This document shows, one piece after another, positions 53,251-63,443 of a stretch of DNA of 64,000 bases. A program made the translations under genes and the position numbers. The stretch spans positions 1 to 64,000 of the forward strand of contig NZ_JACHVB010000013.1 of assembly GCF_014230085.1 (NCBI RefSeq), written 5' to 3'. The notes beneath the pieces were generated by a model, which did not search any database, was not told where the DNA came from, and saw only the letters and a list, made by a program, of their open reading frames with translations. Position 1 is the first letter of the stretch. Every line of letters starts with the position of its first letter. This stretch comes from Ruficoccus amylovorans. GTDB taxonomy: Bacteria; Verrucomicrobiota; Verrucomicrobiia; Opitutales; Cerasicoccaceae.

Positions 53251-54753
53251 TTAGAGCGCCTGGGTACGCAGCACCCAGCACACAATACCGACCACGAAGA
53301 GTATGCCGAGCATGATCCAGAAGGTGCCCAGGTTCTTGAGTTCGGAGGAATCCACCATCTGGCGGGTGCGTGAGCTGGAGCGCGAACGGCTACGGCCCTT
53401 CTTGAGGAAGCCGTCGTAATGGCGCTGGAGCAAATAGGTTTCGACCTGACGCATGGTGTCGAGCATGACACCCACGGCGATCAGCGTACCGGTACCACCG
53501 AAGAACAGGGCGATGTCCTGCGGAATCCGCTGGGTCGCCATGATCAGGTTCGGGAACAGGGCGATCACGGTCAGGAAAATAGCACCGGCCAGGGTCAGGC
53601 GGGTCATGACGAAGTCGAGGAAGCGGGCCGTCGGCTCACCGGGGCGTACGCCGGGGATGTAGCCGCCGTTTTTCTTCAGGTCGTCGGCGATCTGGATCGG
53701 TTTGAACATGATCGAGACCCAGAAATAGCTAAAGCCCATGATCAGCACAGCCTCGGTGATGTAATACCCCACCCCGGTCATGCTGAAAGTGTTGGCCAGG
53801 TTTTCGAGAAAGGCGCTGTTGAAGACACCCGCCAGGCTGCTCAGGATTTGAGCCGGGAATAGCATGATGGCGCTGGCGAAGATGACCGGCATAACACCGG
53901 AGTAGTTCACCTTCAGCGGCAGGAACGAGCTTTGCCCGCCGAAGACCTTTCGGCCCACGACACGTTTGGCGTACTGGACCGGTATTTTTCGTACCGCCTG
54001 TGTGACGGCCACGATACCGGCTACTACGGCCACAAACAGGATAAGCATCAATACTGCCTTGGGCACACTCATACTGGCTTCGGCCCCGGCCTTCGCCGTG
54101 ACCAGACGCCAGGCCGACACCACCGCGCTCGGGAAGCGGGCCAGAATACCGATCGTGATCAGCAGTGAAATACCGTTGCCAATCCCGTTCTGGGTAATCT
54201 GTTCCCCGATCCACATCAGCAGAATGGTGCCGGCGGTCAGGAAGATCGTAGAGGTGATGAGGAACCAGGTCGGGTCGATCATCACAATCGCCCCCCACTG
54301 GTTGACATCGAAGCCCTGGAAAACGCGGTCCGGATAGCGGATCAGCGCGAGGTTCAGCAGCAGGCCCTGCACAACCGCGATACCAATAGTGAGGTAGCGG
54401 GTGTACTGGGTGATTTTTTGCCGCCCGATTTCGCCCTCCTGCTGGAGGCGGGCGAGGGTCGGAACCACCGCCGCCATCAACTGCAAGATGATCGACGCGC
54501 TAATGTACGGCATGATGCCCAGGGCAAACACGGCCCCGTTTAGCAGAGCGCCCCCCGTGAACATGTTATAAAGTCCCAAGACCCCGTCAGTGGCGGAGGC
54601 CTGGAACTCGAAGAAGTTCTGAAGCGGCTTCGGATTAAACCCGGGCAATGGAATGGCCGCGCCCACGCGGGCAACGAACACCATGCCGAAGGTGAAGAGA
54701 ATCCGGCTCCGCAGTTCGGGGATCTTTAAACAGTTGAGGAAAGCGTTAAGCAT
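53251..54753 (-). CDS. secY: Preprotein translocase subunit SecY with C-terminal extension
   Basis: 500 residues against about 435-450 usual. The ten membrane helices of SecY are present: PLPGFNPKPLQNFF near the plug, LGIMPYISASIILQLM, NGISLLITIGI, IPVQYAKR and GGYIPGVRPGEPT. After the usual end (RHYDGFLKKGRS) come about 47 more residues: a Ser/Arg-rich stretch (RSRSRSSSRTRQ), a linker, and a further hydrophobic helix (NLGTFWIMLGILFVVGIVCW). The ATG at 54753 fits the family. It lies between rplO and map. Confidence 0.95.
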   Translation of the reverse strand: MLNAFLNCLKIPELRSRILFTFGMVFVARVGAAIPLPGFNPKPLQNFFEFQASATDGVLGLYNMFTGGALLNGAVFALGIMPYISASIILQLMAAVVPTLARLQQEGEIGRQKITQYTRYLTIGIAVVQGLLLNLALIRYPDRVFQGFDVNQWGAIVMIDPTWFLITSTIFLTAGTILLMWIGEQITQNGIGNGISLLITIGILARFPSAVVSAWRLVTAKAGAEASMSVPKAVLMLILFVAVVAGIVAVTQAVRKIPVQYAKRVVGRKVFGGQSSFLPLKVNYSGVMPVIFASAIMLFPAQILSSLAGVFNSAFLENLANTFSMTGVGYYITEAVLIMGFSYFWVSIMFKPIQIADDLKKNGGYIPGVRPGEPTARFLDFVMTRLTLAGAIFLTVIALFPNLIMATQRIPQDIALFFGGTGTLIAVGVMLDTMRQVETYLLQRHYDGFLKKGRSRSRSSSRTRQMVDSSELKNLGTFWIMLGILFVVGIVCWVLRTQAL

Positions 54754-54798
54754 CGGTGCAGCAGTGTTGAGGTCACAGGCCGAAGGCCCGGAGGGAGT

Positions 54799-55272
54799 TT
54801 ACTCCCCCTTCGCAGGCGCTTCCTCGGCGGGCTGGGTCAGGATGACCTTGCCGCCGGCGGCTTCGATCTTCTGCTTGGCGCTTTCGGAGAACTTGTCCGC
54901 CGTCACCGTGATGGCGCGGGTCAGCTCACCGTGGCCAAGCACCTTGACCAGCTTCGACTTGCGGGCGACGATACCAGCCTTCTTCAGGCTTTCGACGGTG
55001 ATCTCGGTCGCGTCGAGCTTTTCGAGCACGCTGACGTTCACAGCTTCGTATTCCTTGCGGAACTTGTAGTTGTTGAAGCCGCGGTGCGGAAGCGTCCGGT
55101 ACAACGGGATCTGGCCACCCTCAAAACCGGGGCGAATGCTCGCGCCCGAACGGGCCTTTTGACCTTTTTGGCCACGACCGGAGGTCTTGCCCAGACCGGT
55201 GCCGGGGCCGATGCCCTTGCGCTTCTTGCGATGGGTAGCGCCGGGATTGTTGCTCAGGGAATGAAGTTTCAT
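54799..55272 (-). CDS. rplO: Ribosomal protein L15
   Basis: 157 residues. Motifs: MKLHSLSNNPGATHRKKRKG, GRGQKGQKARSGASIRPGFE, GGQIPLYRTLPHRGFNN and ITVTADKFSESAKQKIEAAG. It follows rpsE directly by 33 bases; rpmD (L30), usually between them, is not there. Confidence 0.96.
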   Translation of the reverse strand: MKLHSLSNNPGATHRKKRKGIGPGTGLGKTSGRGQKGQKARSGASIRPGFEGGQIPLYRTLPHRGFNNYKFRKEYEAVNVSVLEKLDATEITVESLKKAGIVARKSKLVKVLGHGELTRAITVTADKFSESAKQKIEAAGGKVILTQPAEEAPAKGE

Positions 55273-55305
55273 GATAAGGGATTTCCTCTCGTAGACGAAT
55301 GGATA

Positions 55306-55932
55306 TTAAGCCAGCGTTGCAGCCGGCTCTTCCTTCTTGGTGCCAGCCTGCTTGATCCGGGCGATCTGCTCGGCACTGCGCAGTTGGCGAAGACCCTCCA
55401 GGGTGGCATTAACCATAGCGCCGGGGTTGTTCGACCCGAGCGACTTGGACAGCACGTCCTGAATGCCGACAGCTTCGAGCACGGCACGGATACCGCCACC
55501 GGCGATGACACCGGTACCTTCGGAGGCCGGGCGCAGGATAACGAGACCGCCGTCATGCTCACCGCGCACTTCGTGCGGGATGGTGCGGCCCTTCAGGCAA
55601 ATGTCTTCCTGGTTGGCGCGGGCACGCTCGGTACCCTTGCGGATGGCTTCGGGAACTTCCTTGGCCTTGCCGTAGCCGATGCCGACCTTGCCCTTGCCGT
55701 CGCCGGAGACGACCAGCGCGGCAAAGCTGAAGCGACGGCCGCCCTTGACGACCTTGGCGCAACGGTTGATGTGGACGACCTTCTCGACGTACTGCTGTTC
55801 TTCAACCGGCTCGGAAGCGCGCTCGCGACGGGGTCCGCGACCGCGACCAGGGCCACCACGGCCTTGGCCGCCACGGCCCTGTCCACCGCGGTTGCGCTCA
55901 TGGGGGTTGTTGCTGCTGGGCTGATTACTCAT
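55306..55932 (-). CDS. rpsE: Ribosomal protein S5 with RGG-rich N-terminal extension
   Basis: 208 residues against about 166 usual. The conserved S5 part starts [20 protein letters not shown], with the dsRBD-like domain and [20 protein letters not shown]. The first 45 residues are an extension with repeated Arg/Gly units ([20 protein letters not shown]) followed by Arg/Glu-rich sequence. The frame is open from the ATG at 55932 only. Confidence 0.95.
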
Positions 55933-55947
55933 GCTGATATAAATGGG

Positions 55948-56310
55948 TTAGAATTCGAGACCGGCTTCGCGAGCGGCGTCGGCGAAAGCCTTGATGCAGC
56001 CATGATAGCGACGACCGGCGCGGTCGAACACAACGCTCTGCACACCTGCGCTCTTGGCCTTTTCGCCGATGGTCTTGCCAAGCTTGGCGGCACCTTCGAG
56101 GTTGGGCTTGATTTCGCTCTCGCGCAGAGCCTTGTCCATGGACGAGGCCGAGGCCACGGTGTGGCCGACGGTGTCGTCGATGCACTGGGCATAGACATGC
56201 TGGTGCGAAAAACGCACGACCAGACGGGGCCGTTCGGCGGTGCCTTGGATTTTCTTGCGGATGCGCCAGCGGCGCTTTTGCAACAGTTCGCGTTTCTTCT
56301 GAAGTTTCAT
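55948..56310 (-). CDS. rplR: Ribosomal protein L18
   Basis: 120 residues, normal. Motifs: RRIRKKIQGTAERPRLVVRF, SHQHVYAQCIDDTVGHTVAS and a C-terminal FDRAGRRYHGCIKAFADAAR. It binds 5S rRNA with L5. It sits between rplF and rpsE. Confidence 0.96.
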   Translation of the reverse strand: MKLQKKRELLQKRRWRIRKKIQGTAERPRLVVRFSHQHVYAQCIDDTVGHTVASASSMDKALRESEIKPNLEGAAKLGKTIGEKAKSAGVQSVVFDRAGRRYHGCIKAFADAAREAGLEF

Positions 56311-56321
56311 GGGTCGTGCGA

Positions 56322-56858
56322 TTAAGCGGTTTTCTTACCTTCCTTGCGGCGGACGTATTCGCCAACGATGCGGACACCCTTGCCCTTGTAGGGCTCGACG
56401 GGCTTGAAGCCCTTGATGTCGGCGGCGACCTGGCCGACCACCTGCTTGTCGCAGCCTTCGACCGTTACCTTGGTGCCGGCGTCGATGGTAATGGTAATAC
56501 CCTCGGGGATGGCGTAGTTGATCGGGTGCGAGTAGCCCAGGGCCAAGTCGAGCATCTTGCCATTGAGGACGGCTTTAAAACCGACGCCCTCGATTTCGAG
56601 CTTCTTGACGTAGGGTTCCTGCACGCCGGCGACCATACCGTTGATGATGGAACGGGCGGTGCCGTACATCGCGTTGGCGTGGCGGCTGTCATCCTTGGGC
56701 GAGACGATCACGTTGCCGTCTTCGACCTTGATACTGACGCAGCTTTCAAAGGTCTTGGTGAGCTTGCCCTTGGGGCCTTCCACCGCGACTTCCGATCCGT
56801 TAACGGTCACTTTGACCTTTTCAGGAACGGCAACCGGGAGTTTTCCGATTCTGCTCAT
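56322..56858 (-). CDS. rplF: Ribosomal protein L6
   Basis: 178 residues, normal. Two L6 repeats, beginning MSRIGKLPVAVPEKVKVTVN, with GVGFKAVLNGKMLDLALGYS and the C-terminal KPVEPYKGKGVRIVGEYVRR. It sits between rpsH and rplR. Confidence 0.97.
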   Translation of the reverse strand: MSRIGKLPVAVPEKVKVTVNGSEVAVEGPKGKLTKTFESCVSIKVEDGNVIVSPKDDSRHANAMYGTARSIINGMVAGVQEPYVKKLEIEGVGFKAVLNGKMLDLALGYSHPINYAIPEGITITIDAGTKVTVEGCDKQVVGQVAADIKGFKPVEPYKGKGVRIVGEYVRRKEGKKTA

Positions 56859-56895
56859 GAGGAAAAAAGTATGTTATTAATTGAAGTGAGTGTGA

Positions 56896-57294
56896 TTACC
56901 AGACCTTGCAGATGACCTCGCCGCCGACTTTTTCACGGCGCGCGTCGCGATCACTGAGGATACCCTTGGAGGTGGTAAGAATGGAGGTGCCGAGTCCGCC
57001 GAGCACGCGCGGAATATCCGTGTGCTTGGCATAGAGGCGGCGGCCGGGCTTGCTGTAGCGCTCGATGCCGACGATCGCCGAGGAGGCGTCAACGTACTTG
57101 AGCGTAATAATAAGGTTGCGTTGTCCCTTGACCTCTTCGACCTCGCTCACATCGCTGACGTAGCCGTCGCGAAGGAGAATCTGGGCGATGCCGGCACGCA
57201 GCTTGGAATAGCGGACCGTGCAGGTATCCTTGCCCGCAGCGCTGGCGTTGCGGAGGTTGGTCAGGAAGTCACCGATGGTGTCGTGTACTGCCAT
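56896..57294 (-). CDS. rpsH: Ribosomal protein S8
   Basis: 132 residues, normal. Motifs: DTIGDFLTNLRNASAAGKDT, IVGIERYSKPGRRLYAKHTD and IPRVLGGLGTSILTTSKGIL. It sits between rpsN and rplF. Confidence 0.97.
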   Translation of the reverse strand: MAVHDTIGDFLTNLRNASAAGKDTCTVRYSKLRAGIAQILLRDGYVSDVSEVEEVKGQRNLIITLKYVDASSAIVGIERYSKPGRRLYAKHTDIPRVLGGLGTSILTTSKGILSDRDARREKVGGEVICKVW

Positions 57295-57316
57295 TGTCTG
57301 TGTCGTGCTTGGAGGT

Positions 57317-57622
57317 TTACCAGGAGGATTTGGTCACACCGGGAATGTGGCCGTGCGAGGCCAGTTCGCGGAACGTGATACGGGACAGGCCGTACTTGCG
57401 GATATAGGCGCGCGGACGACCGGTGACGTTGCAGCGGTTGCGGACGCGGATCGGAGAGGAGTTGCGCGGCAGCTTGCTGAGCTTGCGCTGGGCTTCCCAG
57501 AATTCCTCGTCGGTGGTGGCGGGATTGGCGAGGGTCGCCTTGAGTTCCGCGCGCTTGGCCGCGTACTTTTCGACGAGGCGTTCGCGCTTCTTGTTGCGGG
57601 CAATGGAGCTTTTCTTGGCCAT
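57317..57622 (-). CDS. rpsN: Ribosomal protein S14, long form
   Basis: 101 residues. This is the zinc-free long form: [20 protein letters not shown] at the N-terminus and [41 protein letters not shown] at the end. It lacks the CxxC pairs of the short form. Confidence 0.97.
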
Positions 57623-57631
57623 GCTTGTAAA

Positions 57632-58219
57632 TTAGTTGGCGGTGGCAGCCGCGGTCTGGGAAGAGGGTTTGCGGAAGGGCATGCCGAGCAGCTTGAGCAG
57701 CTCGCGGCCTTCCTTGTCGGACGAGGCGGAGGTCACGATGGTGATGTCCATCCCGATGGATTCGCGCCCGGAGGTGTCGTGGCTGATTTCGGGGAAGATG
57801 GTCGAGTCGGAAATGCCGATCGAGTAGTTCCCGCTGCCATCGAACTTCTGCGAGACACCGCGGAAGTCGCGGATGTTCGGCAGGGCGATGTTGATGAAAC
57901 GCAGGAGGAAGTCGTACATCTTGCTGCCACGCAGAGTGACGGCGACGCCGTTGGGCATGCCTTCGCGCAGCTTGAAGTTCGACACGCTCTTGCGGGCCTT
58001 CGTGACGACGGCCTGCTGGCCGGCGATGGAGGTGATCTCCTTCTGGACTTCGGCCACCCAGTTCTTGTCGCGGGAGGCGTTCAGGCCGGAGTTGATGACG
58101 ACCTTCTCCACCTTCGGTACCTGATGCACATTCTTATAGCCGAGGCTCTTGAGCAATTCGGGGACGACGGTGTCGAGATAGGCCTTCTTAAGGGTCGGGA
58201 CGTATGCGGTATTTTGCAT
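57632..58219 (-). CDS. rplE: Ribosomal protein L5
   Basis: 195 residues. Motifs: KVEKVVINSGLNASRDKNWV, RKSVSNFKLREGMPNGVAVT and DITIVTSASSDKEGRELLKL. The ATG at 58219 is supported by a Shine-Dalgarno (AAGGAGACC) at a good distance. An upstream GTG at 58243 would overlap the rplX stop and is less likely. The C-terminal SSQTAAATAN tail is short and low-complexity. Confidence 0.96.
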   Translation of the reverse strand: MQNTAYVPTLKKAYLDTVVPELLKSLGYKNVHQVPKVEKVVINSGLNASRDKNWVAEVQKEITSIAGQQAVVTKARKSVSNFKLREGMPNGVAVTLRGSKMYDFLLRFINIALPNIRDFRGVSQKFDGSGNYSIGISDSTIFPEISHDTSGRESIGMDITIVTSASSDKEGRELLKLLGMPFRKPSSQTAAATAN

Positions 58220-58242
58220 GACTATGGGTCTCCTTGGCGGCA

Positions 58243-58494
58243 CTAGGCGCTCTTGCGGCTGTCGTAACGGTCAGCCTTCATGACGTTTGAGTAGTGGACG
58301 GAGCCTTCGCGCTCGACGATACCCGCATCCGGGTCGTTTTCCTTGGTCGCCTTGCGATGGCGCTTGACCATGTTCACGCCCTCAATGACGACGCGTTCCT
58401 GTTCGCGCAGCACTTCGAGGACCTTGCCGCGCTGCCCCTTATGGGCGCCGGCGATGACGACGACTTCGTCTCCACGTTTGATTTTGTACTTCAT
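58243..58494 (-). CDS. rplX: Ribosomal protein L24
   Basis: 83 residues, slightly short. The KOW domain is clear: IKRGDEVVVIAGAHKGQRGK and VLEVLREQERVVIEGVNMVK. The usual C-terminal part (about 20 residues) is shortened. Confidence 0.95.
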   Translation of the reverse strand: MKYKIKRGDEVVVIAGAHKGQRGKVLEVLREQERVVIEGVNMVKRHRKATKENDPDAGIVEREGSVHYSNVMKADRYDSRKSA

Positions 58495-58515
58495 CTTCGT
58501 GTGTGGTGCCGGGGG

Positions 58516-58881
58516 TTAGAGGACTTCCGGAGCGAGGGAAATGATCTTCATGAACTTCTTCGAACGAAGCTCACGGGCGACCGGCCCGAAGATACGAGTC
58601 CCCTTGGGGTTGCCGTTGGCGTCAATGATGACGCACGCATTCGTGTCGAAGCGCAGGTAGCTGCCATCCGCACGGCGGATCGGCGCCTTGGTGCGCACTA
58701 CCACGGCCTTGGCGACCGTGCCCTTTTTGACCGAGGCTTCCGGGGTGCTGTCCTTGATCGTGACGACGATCGTATCGCCCACCGAAGCGGTCTTTTTACT
58801 CTGGCCGAGTCGCCGGATCATCATGGCCTCTTTGGCCCCGGTGTTGTCGGCGACTTCCAGTCTGCTTTCTTGCTGAATCAT
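58516..58881 (-). CDS. rplN: Ribosomal protein L14
   Basis: 121 residues, normal. Motifs: [40 protein letters not shown] and [20 protein letters not shown]. It sits between rpsQ and rplX. Confidence 0.97.
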
Positions 58882-58943
58882 TGCGGGTTCCGTTTAAATT
58901 GTGAAGTGTTAAATCGGCTTCCGGCTGTAGGGGGCTGAAGCCC

Positions 58944-59228
58944 TTAGCCGATGCTCCCGACGACGGGGGCCTTTTCGAGTACCTTGACCACACGCCAGCG
59001 CTTGAGCTTGCTCAGCGGGCGGGTTTCCATGATCTCCACCTTGTCACCGATGTTACACTCATTCTTTTCATCATGAGCGTGAACGACGGTCTTGCGCTTA
59101 ACCTCCTTGCGGTACAGCGGGTGGGCAATCTTGTAGAAGAAGGTGACCTTGATGGACTTGTCGCCGGTACGGCTGGTGACAACACCAACGAGGTCCTTGC
59201 GGTTATTGCGTGTGCTCTCTTCGGACAT
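58944..59228 (-). CDS. rpsQ: Ribosomal protein S17
   Basis: 94 residues. OB-fold motifs: [40 protein letters not shown] and [20 protein letters not shown]. It sits between rpmC and rplN. Confidence 0.96.
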
Positions 59229-59245
59229 GGTCGTATGAAAAGGGG

Positions 59246-59443
59246 TTAGGCAGTGGCGGTGGATTTGGCCTTCAGGAAGGTCTCCAGCCGGGCGATGTCG
59301 CGGCGCAGGGTGCGTAGCTCGCTGGGCTTTTCAACCTGTCCGGCCTGCTTGCGCACGCGCAACTCGACGAGCTCCTGGCGTGTGTCACGGAGCTTCTTTT
59401 TGATCTCGTCGATGCTCAATTCGCGTATTTCTGCGGGTTTCAT
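59246..59443 (-). CDS. rpmC: Ribosomal protein L29
   Basis: 65 residues, normal. It starts [20 protein letters not shown] and ends with a helical [15 protein letters not shown] segment. It sits between rplP and rpsQ. Confidence 0.95.
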
Positions 59444-59475
59444 GGGAAAATGGTGTTTAACCGGATGTTGCTGGG

Positions 59476-59904
59476 TTAGTACTGTTCGAGCTCTTCGCGG
59501 CTGAGGAAGCGGCAGCGGAAAGGTAGCTTGCCGTCGGCCAGGCGCATGGCCTCGCGGGCGAGAGTCTGGCTGGTGCCGCCGACTTCAAAGAGGACGGTAC
59601 CGGGCTTGACCACGGCGCACCAGTACTCGACGGAGCCCTTACCCTTACCCTGGCGGGTTTCGGCGGGCTTCTTGGTCACCGGCTTGTGCGGGAACACGCG
59701 CAGCCACATCTTGCCTTTACGCTTGAGGTGGCGGTTGATGGCCACACGGGCGGCTTCGAGCTGCGAGGCGGTCATCTTGCCCCGCTCGAGGGACTGGATG
59801 CCGAATTCGCCGAAAGCGAGCGTATCACAGCCCTTGGCGTTGCCACGAATGCGGCCCTTGTGGACCTTGCGGTATTTGGTTTTGGAGGGAAGGAGCTTGG
59901 CCAT
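59476..59904 (-). CDS. rplP: Ribosomal protein L16
   Basis: 142 residues, normal. Motifs: LPSKTKYRKVHKGRIRGNAK, WLRVFPHKPVTKKPAETRQG, KGKGSVEYWCAVVKPGTVLF. It sits between rpsC and rpmC. Confidence 0.97.
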   Translation of the reverse strand: MAKLLPSKTKYRKVHKGRIRGNAKGCDTLAFGEFGIQSLERGKMTASQLEAARVAINRHLKRKGKMWLRVFPHKPVTKKPAETRQGKGKGSVEYWCAVVKPGTVLFEVGGTSQTLAREAMRLADGKLPFRCRFLSREELEQY

Positions 59905-59916
59905 GACGAATGATGC

Positions 59917-60552
59917 TTAGAGGGTATCCACGCCCATGGGGTTACAGATCCAGCACTTGATGCCGATCTTCCCGTAGACGGTGTCGGCTTCGGTGAAGCC
60001 GTAGTCGATGTTTTCACGGAGCGTGTGCAAGGGCACGCGGCCCATGCGCTGCTGCTCGGTGCGGGCGATTTCCGCGCCCATCAGACGGCCCGAGCACTGG
60101 ATACGGATACCTTCGGCACCCATGCTCATGGTGGTCTGGATCGCCTTCTTCATGGCGCGGCGGAAAGAGATGCGGCGCTCGAGCTGGAGAGCGACGTTTT
60201 CGGCCACGAGTTGGGCGACCACGTCAGGCTTCTTGATCTCCTGAATGTCGAGCATGATGTCGCGGCCGGTGAGCTTCTGGAGCTCGTCCTTGAGCTTTTC
60301 CAGTTCGCTGCCCTTGCGGCCGATGACGATCCCGGGACGGGCGGTGAAGAGCTTGATACGGACCTTGGGGCCGGCACGCTCGATGAACACGCGCGGCACC
60401 GCTGCGTACTTCATCTTCTTCTTGAGGAACTGGCGGATCTTCTGGTCCTCGGCGACATAGGCCGGGAAGCTCTTCTTGTCCGCGTACCAGCGTGAATCCC
60501 AGTTACGGCGGACACTGAGGCGGAAACCGATCGGATTGACTTTTTGTCCCAT
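59917..60552 (-). CDS. rpsC: Ribosomal protein S3
   Basis: 211 residues, slightly short of the usual 220-235. The KH domain has [10 protein letters not shown]-type sequence ([20 protein letters not shown]). The C-terminal domain includes [20 protein letters not shown] and [14 protein letters not shown]. The basic tail found in other S3 proteins is missing. Confidence 0.97.
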
Positions 60553-60554
60553 GA

Positions 60555-60920
60555 TTATTGCTCTTTAGAATTGGCCGCGGGCGAAGCCACTTCGTCCGTC
60601 AGGACGATGCGAATGTGGCTGGTGCGCTTGCGAATGGGGTGTGCGGAACCGCGACCCACCGGACGGAAACGCTTGAAGGCCGGGCCTTCTTCCACCAGGC
60701 AGCGCTTCACGATCAGGTCGTCGGAGGAAAGGTTGTTGTTGTTTTCCGCGTTAGCGATGGCGCTGGTCAGCGTCTTGGCGATGAGCCGGGCGGATTTACG
60801 CGGGATGAAGCGAAGCAGATCGAGCGCTTCGGCCGCGGGGCGTCCCTGTACCTGACGGGCCACTTCGCGGACCTTCTTCGGGGACATGCGGGTGTACTTG
60901 GTTAGAGCCTGAACTTCCAT
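60555..60920 (-). CDS. rplV: Ribosomal protein L22
   Basis: 121 residues, normal. Motifs: [40 protein letters not shown] and a C-terminal [20 protein letters not shown]. It usually follows rpsS directly; here a further gene lies between them. Confidence 0.97.
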
Positions 60921-60932
60921 GCTGGTTGCAAT

Positions 60933-61340
60933 TTAAATATTAATCGTCTTGATGCTGACGCCGTCGCCGGAGCGGATGGCTTCGCCGGATTCGAGGTTGA
61001 GGATGAGGCCGGCGGCGCGGTTACCGCGCACATCGACCAGGATCAGGTCGGCCACGTTCTGTCCCGAGCGGCTCACCTGGCAAACCATGCCGAGGCGAAA
61101 CCCCTGATCCAGACCGTTGTTGAGGATGACCACATCGGTGACGCTGGTCTGCGCCACCCCGAAGACCGTCGTGCGGCCCGTCGGGTAAATCGAATTTTCG
61201 ACAAACAAGGGGCGTTCGGCAACGGCCTTGGCCGGTGCGTCAGCACTCCCCTGCTCCACGGCGGCGTCCTGCGCGCGGCTCACCGCACTCCCGGCCATCA
61301 GCAGGGAGAAAAGAGCGATGAGTTGTGCGCGCTTGAACAT
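60933..61340 (-). CDS. Exported protein of unknown function inside the S10 operon
   Basis: A 135-residue protein with a typical signal peptide (FKRAQLIALFSLLMAGSAVS, cleavage near residue 23, SRA-QD). The mature part is a small beta-rich domain: SIYPTGRTTVFGVAQTSVTD and then LNNGLDQGFRLGMVCQVSR, ending GEAIRSGDGVSIKTINI. The G-x-x-x-G-x-x-x-G-M-x-x-x-V pattern resembles the small barrels that end some envelope proteins (FlgT or MreC type), a weak likeness only. The ATG at 61340 lies 10 bases after the rpsS stop and the stop is 12 bases before rplV, so it is co-transcribed with ribosomal genes. The open frame continues upstream into rpsS but has no signal peptide there. Confidence 0.8.
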   Translation of the reverse strand: MFKRAQLIALFSLLMAGSAVSRAQDAAVEQGSADAPAKAVAERPLFVENSIYPTGRTTVFGVAQTSVTDVVILNNGLDQGFRLGMVCQVSRSGQNVADLILVDVRGNRAAGLILNLESGEAIRSGDGVSIKTINI

Positions 61341-61350
61341 GTGTGGATGA

Positions 61351-61620
61351 CTACTTCTTGGTGTGCGGCTGGTGTCCCTTGAAGCTGCGGGTCGGAGCGA
61401 ACTCGCCGAGCTTGTGGCCAACCATGTTTTCGGTCACGTGGACGGGGATGAAGCCTTTGCCATTGTGAACGTTGATGTTGAGGCCGACAAAGTCCGGGGT
61501 GATGGTGGAGCGGCGTGACCAGGTCTGGAAAGGCTTGTGTGTGCCTTCGGCCTGGGCCTTTTCCACTTTATCCATCAGCTTCGGATCGACGAAGAAGCCT
61601 TTCTTGATTGAACGTGCCAT
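61351..61620 (-). CDS. rpsS: Ribosomal protein S19
   Basis: 89 residues, normal. Motifs: [40 protein letters not shown] and [19 protein letters not shown]. It sits between rplB and the exported-protein gene. Confidence 0.97.
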
Positions 61621-61641
61621 ATCGTAAAAATCGTTGTCGGG

Positions 61642-62490
61642 TTACTTGCGCTTGAACTTCTTGCCGTTGCGACGGACAAGGATCATGGAGTTCGAGGGCT
61701 TGGACTTGGTGCGGGTCGGGAAGCCCTTCGAGAGCTGGCCCCAAGGCGAAACAGGATGGCCACCACCGGAGGTCTTGGCTTCACCACCACCCATCGGGTG
61801 ATCGACAGGGTTCATAGCGACACCACGGACGCGGGGGCGCTTGCCCTTCCAGCGGTTACGACCGGCCTTACCGATGCTGACACTTTCGTGCTCCTCGTTA
61901 CCGACGCGACCGACAGTGGCGCGGCAATCAGAGTGGACCATGCGGATTTCTCCGGAGGGCAGCTTGATCGTGGCACGCTTGCCTTCGATCGAAATGAGCG
62001 AGGCGGACTGACCGGCGGAACGAGCGATCTGGGCTCCGCGACCGGGCTGCATCTCGATCGCGTGGATCGTGGTGGCCGGCGGGATCATCTTGAGCGGCAC
62101 GCACAGGCCGGGCGTGAATTCCTCGACCGGGCTGTTGGTGCTCAGCAGCTTGTCGCCTACCTTCAGCCCGCGTGGGCAAAGGATGTAGCGCTTTTCGCCG
62201 TCCTCAAACTTGAGCAGGGCAATGTTCGCGCTGCGGTTCGGGTCGTACTCGATGGAGACAATCTCAGCCGGGATGTCCAGCTTGTCACGACGGAAGTCGA
62301 TGATACGGTAAAGGCGCTTGTGGCCACCTCCGCGACGGCGAGAAGTGATGCGGCCGTAGTTGTTACGGCCCTTCTTGCGGTGACGCGAGACGGTGAGGCT
62401 CTTTTCCGGATTGTTCTTGGCGAGTTCCTGGCGGCTTTTGCTATGAAAGCGCTGTGAGGGTGTAATGGGTTTGGTCTTTACAATGGCCAT
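61642..62490 (-). CDS. rplB: Ribosomal protein L2
   Basis: 282 residues, normal. Motifs: [40 protein letters not shown], and the conserved histidine region [19 protein letters not shown]. It sits between rplW and rpsS. Confidence 0.98.
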
Positions 62491-62510
62491 GGCTTTCGCG
62501 GCTGAAAAGG

Positions 62511-62801
62511 TTAGACGGTCTCGATGGATTCACCCTGCTGAAGGGTGACGATGGCTTTCTTCATGTCGGGGGTCTTGCCGTACTGGCCGCGAACGGTGCG
62601 GCTGCGCTTGTTCTTGCCCTTGACAGTGAAGATGTTCACGCGGGCGACCTTGACGTTGTAGAGCTTCTCTACGGCCTCGGCCACATCGGTGCGTTTGGAT
62701 TGCGGATACACCTCGAAGACGTGCTGATTCAGGTTCGCTTCGAGCTGGGCGGACTTCTCGGTCACGCGCTTTTCCTTGATGACTTTATCGGGTGAAATCA
62801 T
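62511..62801 (-). CDS. rplW: Ribosomal protein L23
   Basis: 96 residues, normal. Motifs: [20 protein letters not shown] and [20 protein letters not shown]. It sits between rplD and rplB. Confidence 0.96.
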
Positions 62802-62813
62802 GGCTTGAGTTCC

Positions 62814-63443
62814 TTAGCGTTGGTTGGCGCGTTCGAGGATGCGGTTAAAGCCTTCTTCGCTGGCGACGATCTTGTCGAAGCGCATCAGGTCCCAGGCGTT
62901 GATCGAGTCAGCGTCCACAATGTAGACGCGGTCGATATTACGCGCAGCCAGAGCGGCGTTGTCGTTGAACTCGCTGTCAACGATGAGCACCTTGCCCTTG
63001 GGCTGGATCTTGCCGATGAGGCTGTTGAAGAGCTTGGTCTTGGGCTGCTCGACTTCGAACTTTTCGATCAGGTCGAGGCCGCCTTCGGAAGCCTTGTTGA
63101 ACAGAGCGCGCTTGAACGCGAGGGTCTTGACACGCTTGTTGATGTGCTTCGACCAGTCGCGGACCTTCGGGCCGTGGGCGACGCCACCACCGACGAAGAT
63201 CGGAGCGCCGCGGTCGCCGTGACGGGCGTTACCGGTGCCCTTCTGGCGGTAGACCTTCTTGCCGGTGCGGTTAACATCGGAGCGGGTCTTCGCCTTGGCG
63301 GTGCCCTGACGGTTGTTGGCCTGGTAGGCCACGATCACGTCCTTGAGCGCCTGGAGGCCCTTGTTGCCTTCGAACGCCGGGAAGTTGTCAAAATCCTTCT
63401 CCGTGCTGGAGGAAGCGTCTGCGGAATATACCTTGAATTTCAT
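62814..63443 (-). CDS. rplD: Ribosomal protein L4
   Basis: 209 residues, normal. Motifs: KTRSDVNRTGKKVYRQKGTG, NARHGDRGAPIFVGGGVAHG and VLIVDSEFNDNAALAARNID. It sits between rplC and rplW. Confidence 0.97.
   Translation of the reverse strand: MKFKVYSADASSSTEKDFDNFPAFEGNKGLQALKDVIVAYQANNRQGTAKAKTRSDVNRTGKKVYRQKGTGNARHGDRGAPIFVGGGVAHGPKVRDWSKHINKRVKTLAFKRALFNKASEGGLDLIEKFEVEQPKTKLFNSLIGKIQPKGKVLIVDSEFNDNAALAARNIDRVYIVDADSINAWDLMRFDKIVASEEGFNRILERANQR

Follow-up and report, generated by a model that had tools for sequence, protein, structure and literature searches.

Few gene orders are as stable as those of ribosomal protein operons, and how bacteria match the growth of their envelope to the synthesis of ribosomes is an open question. 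In the window, by which we mean the whole stretch of 64,000 nucleotides of Ruficoccus amylovorans DNA analysed here, a gene for a 135-residue protein, here called X, is lodged between the ribosomal protein genes rpsS and rplV. An initial annotation proposed that a signal-bearing protein made together with ribosomal proteins might couple the state of the envelope with growth rate. The locus raises the question of what X is, how long it has held its place and what might have kept it there. At roughly even odds (about 0.5), we favour the reading that X is a periplasmic coil-barrel scaffold or adaptor, an old and vertically inherited passenger of the S10 operon that is made in step with the ribosomes.

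The X gene in the S10 operon

The open reading frame (ORF) coordinates agree with the initial annotation in placing X 10 bases behind rpsS and 12 bases ahead of rplV, in an S10/spc gene order that is otherwise ordinary, namely L4-L23-L2-S19-X-L22-S3-L16-L29-S17-L14-L24-L5-S14-S8-L6-L18-S5-L15-SecY (gene names assigned by eye). The features discussed here are the following.

61642..62490, minus strand: rplB (uL2), upstream of rpsS, from gene order
61351..61620, minus strand: rpsS (uS19), upstream neighbour of X, from ORF and gene order
60933..61340, minus strand: X, a 135-aa protein with a predicted signal sequence, linker and six-stranded barrel and of no named family, from ORF, homology searches, AlphaFold2 and dN/dS
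61269..61340, minus strand: putative signal sequence of X, about residues 1-24, with a putative cleavage site near SRA|Q placed by eye and a low-confidence AlphaFold2 helix at residues 5-25
61074..61139, minus strand: best-conserved stretch of X, residues 68-89 (TDVVILNNGLDQGFRLGMVCQV), from the member alignment
60945..61181, minus strand: predicted barrel domain of X, about residues 54-132, from the AlphaFold2 model and fold searches
60555..60920, minus strand: rplV (uL22), downstream neighbour, beside which X remains in genomes with a split operon
59917..60552, minus strand: rpsC (uS3), next in the operon after rplV, from gene order

X is single-copy in the source genome at E<=1. Between 60500 and 61700 no terminator-like site was found (1.7 are expected in shuffled sequence), nor any promoter-like site on the operon strand, and the segment 53000-64000 holds no Rfam match at the gathering score. 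Because no terminator-like site interrupts this interval, X and rplV would share a transcript, and the placement makes it probable that X is co-transcribed with the ribosomal protein genes, as had been supposed. As for translation, a simple rule found a Shine-Dalgarno-like tetramer upstream of only 3 of the 20 operon genes from rplD to secY, X included (53251-63443), these being rplD, rplW and rplO, so that the ribosomal genes of the source genome may mostly start translation without one. In the same stretch, rplE (57632-58243) has an apparent GTG start that touches the end of rplX (58243).

For a non-ribosomal gene among ribosomal protein genes, secY of the spc operon (53251-54753 in the window) is a precedent; like X, it is an export-side gene kept in such an operon. 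However, secY makes the translocon and is, to our knowledge, near-universal, whereas the search for X covered one phylum and the product of X looks exported.

Architecture and predicted export of X

The N-terminus of X carries K/R residues followed by a hydrophobic stretch and, by eye, the possible cleavage site. Signal sequences were judged by simple sequence rules, and a crude rule of this kind found one in 63 of 70 family members, which upholds the signal-bearing protein of the initial annotation; an N-terminal hydrophobic segment is present in 54 of the 59 phylum-level X ORFs, the other five failing the rule with uncertain start codons. At one locus (L243), the X frame lacks a signal sequence and an overlapping upstream frame starts hydrophobic. 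It has to be considered that X might not be exported at all, its N-terminus being a membrane anchor or misread and the protein a ribosome tether or a tether between membrane and ribosome. The ribosomal neighbours of X and the five failing ORFs would suit such a role, but the signal-like N-terminus is widespread and the weak profile likeness of X is to envelope proteins, and we regard it as highly improbable.

An AlphaFold2 model built from 8 sequences reached a pLDDT of 74 and a pTM of 0.59 overall, with block means of 81-95 over residues 51-130, and in it six strands (56-63, 70-73, 86-91, 94-105, 108-116 and 127-130) make up the barrel that had been anticipated from the sequence. The most-kept residues among 44 aligned members, in window numbering, are G76 (44/44), G84 (43/44), G125 (43/44), G80 (40/44) and D126 (36/44).

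Within the order, X measures 105-141 aa in 45 of 52 distinct loci, the others reaching 187 aa at most, and consists of a signal sequence, a linker and a single barrel, the coil being absent in the Opitutales forms. The ORFs of the class and phylum range from 134 to 501 aa (quartiles 234 and 284, with uncertain starts), and most of them are longer than the order-level forms and have a coil-like stretch placed after the signal and before the barrel; the identity of the long forms to the window protein is 13-26%. The coil-like stretch gives weak matches to coiled-coil families, and all those listed lie below the cut-off. Such a coil followed by a barrel, placed with highly expressed genes, could also describe a periplasmic folding factor whose amounts follow protein export. 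This seems improbable to us, as the listed matches include no known periplasmic chaperone and the Opitutales forms do without the coil.

Remote likeness to known barrels

At E<=10, neither Pfam nor NCBIfam gives a match to the window protein, and its relatives have no family match over the cut-off among the matches listed, which are in part the best 25 of 51 and the best 25 of 37 families, given without cut-offs. Judged by its sequences, X would thus be a family without a Pfam or NCBIfam match over the cut-off among the matches listed, and this appears to be its first description.

The modelled barrel does have known cousins, since it resembles the barrels of FlgT and of the F1/V1-ATPase crown. 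Foldseek placed a G1-ATPase chain first (E 2e-3) and FlgT (3w1e) second (E 8e-3), followed mainly by F1/V1-ATPase chains, with nothing below E 1e-3. VIA-align 2 ranked 8z5n_0 of the flagellar LPHT ring first (Z 10.6, 82 aligned residues, rmsd 3.6); from the name of the ring we take this chain to be FlgT. F1/V1-ATPase chains followed at Z of about 10, within Z 1 of 8z5n_0 and hence tied with it, and the aligned range of FlgT, 113-377, spans more than one domain. Small barrels of this kind are common, and a likeness to FlgT or MreC does not have to mean that X does the same work.

Each of these cousins differs from X in ways that matter. The N-terminal barrels of the alpha, beta, A and B subunits of the F1/V1-ATPases superpose on the X model with an rmsd of about 2 over 67-73 residues, whereas X is short, signal-bearing and without a nucleotide-binding domain. 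FlgT, the Vibrio flagellar T-ring protein, is among the best fold matches to the model (3w1e, 8z5n) and may share the barrel, but the cut-off of its FlgT_C family (PF16538) is reached by no scanned X member (best E 0.028, 15.3 bits against 27); the window protein does not match PF16538 at E<=10, and at least 3 of 44 members do so at E<=0.1 among the matches listed. FlgT_C matches at E<=0.01 occur in 31 of 194 phylum genomes, 6 of them over the cut-off, and none lies at rplV in the 17 of these 31 genomes where the place of rplV is known (hand count).

The likeness to the rod-shape protein MreC (PF04085) came from the phylum-wide X profile, which, searched against solved structures, aligned weakly with MreC over the coil and the first half of the barrel (E 0.003). 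Two NCBIfam MreC models match two X members each (best E 0.0016-0.0018 among the matches listed), but no Pfam or NCBIfam cut-off is reached, one member match standing at 17.5 bits against a cut-off of 385. MreC is built of a coiled coil followed by barrels; coil-type matches in X are weak, occur in the long class and phylum forms and are absent from the window form. As a separate mreC was found in 12 of 14 genomes checked, including the source genome, where it lies on another contig (G000:C20:212808-213266), a displaced MreC was ruled out as the identity of X. The same profile aligned weakly with TsaP, the LysM protein at the type IV pilus secretin, over the linker and the first half of the barrel (E 0.18), and the order-level profile touched 6ve2, a LysM protein, at E 0.4; this C-terminal likeness (E 0.18-0.4) is not significant, and the window protein, unlike TsaP, has no LysM match in Pfam at E<=10.

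Distribution in the order, class and phylum

Matches to X at E<=0.01 were found in 28 of 54 genomes of the genus, family and order, and X sits between rpsS and rplV in 27 of the first 29 relative loci, at identities down to 21%. An order profile matched 139 of 273 order genomes (E<=0.01) and 137 of the 337 from the phylum (E<=1e-3), both counts taking in matches at other sites in the genome, L028 and L029 among them. In the 51 loci taken as best matches (L030-L080, partly from the same genomes as the first 29), rpsS precedes and rplV follows X without exception. Outside the operon, coil-plus-barrel proteins occur at L028:952-1902 and L029:1492-2211, and PF16538-positive proteins of about 300 aa (L149-L153) may belong with them.

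To the family we assign an ORF directly upstream of rplV, on the same strand, that matches the X barrel profile, as the window gene does. From the class and phylum, 80 genomes were chosen, 55 for a profile match and 25 for none, and rplV was found in 79 of them (G509 gave no match). Such an X ORF lies directly upstream of rplV in 59 of these 79, a proportion that is enriched for matches and is not a phylum frequency. By hand count, this comprises 49 of the 54 genomes picked for a match and 10 of the 25 picked for none. The survey was scored by a profile holding some of the rows scored; the order-only profile reaches E<1e-3 in 49 of the 59 slot ORFs. Among the 55 genomes with a profile match, the 46 with a listed place were compared and 9 left out, and the match lies 18-186 bases upstream of rplV on the same strand in 42 of the 46. 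In the other four it is not beside rplV; an X ORF nonetheless fills the slot in two of these (G475, G523), and the remaining two (G279, G496) have a short rpsS-rplV gap.

These loci answer two doubts that had accompanied the initial annotation, since relatives occupy the slot well beyond this strain and the same junctions recur in them (27 of the first 29 loci), which leaves no room for an assembly error. The range that it named, Opitutae genomes, was drawn too small, X being found across the class and phylum as well; an Opitutae-only gene is ruled out by these loci.

X is common and not universal, and it was lost or never gained in the genomes that lack it. The other 20 of the 79 genomes comprise 15 in which rpsS and rplV are less than 200 bases apart without an ORF of 60 aa, four that lack both rpsS and X at that place, and one with a 313-base gap and no X. 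In the order, 66 genomes with no or a weak match were examined, six of them without an rplV match; X occupies the slot in none of the remaining 60, where 59 gaps are below 200 bases and one is of 218 bases. Some X-less genomes are of about 1 Mb, and in Chlamydia rpsS and rplV presumably stand side by side. That so many genomes lack X means that it is dispensable there and has no shared indispensable role, and that any coupling of envelope and growth through it is likewise not indispensable.

Within family f14, some X-less genomes keep a gap of 80-145 bases between rpsS and rplV and others one of 17-37 bases; where X is present, 66-92 bases separate it from rplV in six loci (the loci concerned being L094, L095, L099, L102, L104, L105, L107 and L111); the leftover may hold a regulatory element.

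X stays with rplV where the operon is split

In 28 of the 79 class and phylum genomes (L233-L243, L244-L271), the S10 operon has split between rpsS and rplV, leaving the genes as far as rpsS at one site and rplV, rpsC and rplP at another. For 24 of the 59 genomes with X directly upstream of rplV, the stretch read contained no rpsS; it was about 1.6 kb long in 15 of the 24 and up to 3.5 kb in nine (two of these nine end at a contig end). In five of the nine, the genes before X were recognised by eye as topoisomerase I (twice), uracil-DNA glycosylase, a HisI-like protein, and acetate kinase with phosphotransacetylase; the frames in the other four were uninterpretable, and none matched a ribosomal protein of the query set. 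All 28 genomes checked, the 24 with X and the four without it, have rpsS elsewhere, on another contig in 23 and on the same contig, 37 kb to 2.1 Mb away, in five. There, L2 comes before it in all 28 and L23 in 27 of 28, and the 0.7-1.5 kb that follow rpsS contain no L22 in any of them; the rplV of the split loci is followed by uS3 and L16 in nine of nine. The break in the operon, then, falls between rpsS and X, which leaves X as the first gene of the half that carries rplV. The X-rplV link thus outlives the rpsS-rplV link.

A signal-bearing ORF that immediately precedes rplV, and that comes first in the rplV half where the operon has split, recalls export-sensing leaders such as SecM and MifM; if X were one, the pull of the export machinery on its nascent chain would set the translation of rplV and the genes behind it. 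Several observations make this a most improbable account of X. The conservation of X sits in the folded domain, and the conserved C-terminal arrest motif of such leaders is absent from the 44 aligned members, in which no residue behind D126 is kept in 60%, although KT near the end is common within the order. In addition, the spacing between X and rplV varies from about 0 to 165 bases across the slot survey, and whole lineages do without X.

Selection, descent and codon use

Against three genomes of the same genus, X gave dN/dS values of 0.22, 0.23 and 0.19, well under 1 and about 1.6 to 4 times the 0.05-0.12 of the ribosomal genes beside it. This shows purifying selection on X, and the decay of the frame in relatives that would have spoken against the initial annotation did not appear. 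A chance ORF or an assembly artefact was ruled out by these values together with the gene order in relatives. Over 79 loci, with L137 excluded as a false ORF, the distances of X track those of uS3 (Spearman 0.76, with 0 of 999 permutations as high) and of L22 (0.68), the value for L22 against uS3 being 0.81, which fits vertical inheritance in place. The codon adaptation of X is middling, 0.595 against 0.52-0.78 in 18 ribosomal protein genes, and 9 of 39 other ORFs in the window score as high.

It is conceivable, if on balance rather unlikely, that the place of X is historical, that is, that X is an envelope protein tolerated as an ancient insertion and merely given steady, strong expression, without linking envelope to growth. 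The middling codon adaptation would agree with this, as would the empty slot in all 60 order genomes with no or a weak match and the short rpsS-rplV gap in 15 of the 79 genomes of the phylum sample. However, across class and phylum X has stayed in the slot even as the long forms diverged to an identity of 13-26% with the window protein, and X is still beside rplV in the 24 genomes from which rpsS moved away.

Discussion

The scaffold reading can be put as a sequence of steps. X would be an old passenger gene of the Verrucomicrobiota S10 operon, inherited vertically, whose product is presumably exported to the periplasm. There, its C-terminal barrel might dock on an envelope structure or self-assemble at it, with a coil-like arm before the barrel in most class and phylum forms, and with the Opitutales forms being probably little more than the barrel. 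If X is read from one transcript with rplV, rpsC and rplP, its output would be proportional to ribosome synthesis, and a scaffold or adaptor of the growing envelope would thereby keep pace with growth. From gene order, signal-like N-termini and the modelled fold, we infer the export, the co-transcription, the scaffold role and the growth-linked dosage, and with them a coupling of envelope and growth through X. More boldly, and with considerable doubt, we speculate that an envelope scaffold was wired into the ribosome operon in the ancestor of the Verrucomicrobiota, a single transcript then setting both ribosome number and the capacity for envelope building, that selection kept X by rplV after the operon broke, and that the X-less lineages, some with genomes of about 1 Mb and others forming part of f14, manage otherwise.

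As far as searches of open-licence full texts go, in which no published description of the gene was found, the family, its slot and its loyalty to rplV are undescribed, and a description in print elsewhere is possible. The signature protein CT421.2 of the PVC group is likewise conserved and without an assigned function, and one report proposes it as a clade marker of about 53 to more than 80 aa (PMC3444138); the window X, at 135 aa, was compared with it by length. A transposon study of Verrucomicrobium spinosum reports 644 essential genes and counts 100 of 618 essential proteins as being of unknown function (PMC12283558).

That X has stayed so long among ribosome genes suggests that the cell may provision envelope building and ribosome making jointly. 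As such, X, which is probably exported and has long been kept in a ribosomal protein operon, offers a concrete handle on how the envelope is matched to the ribosomes, and its slot is usable as a gene-order marker for the Verrucomicrobiota.
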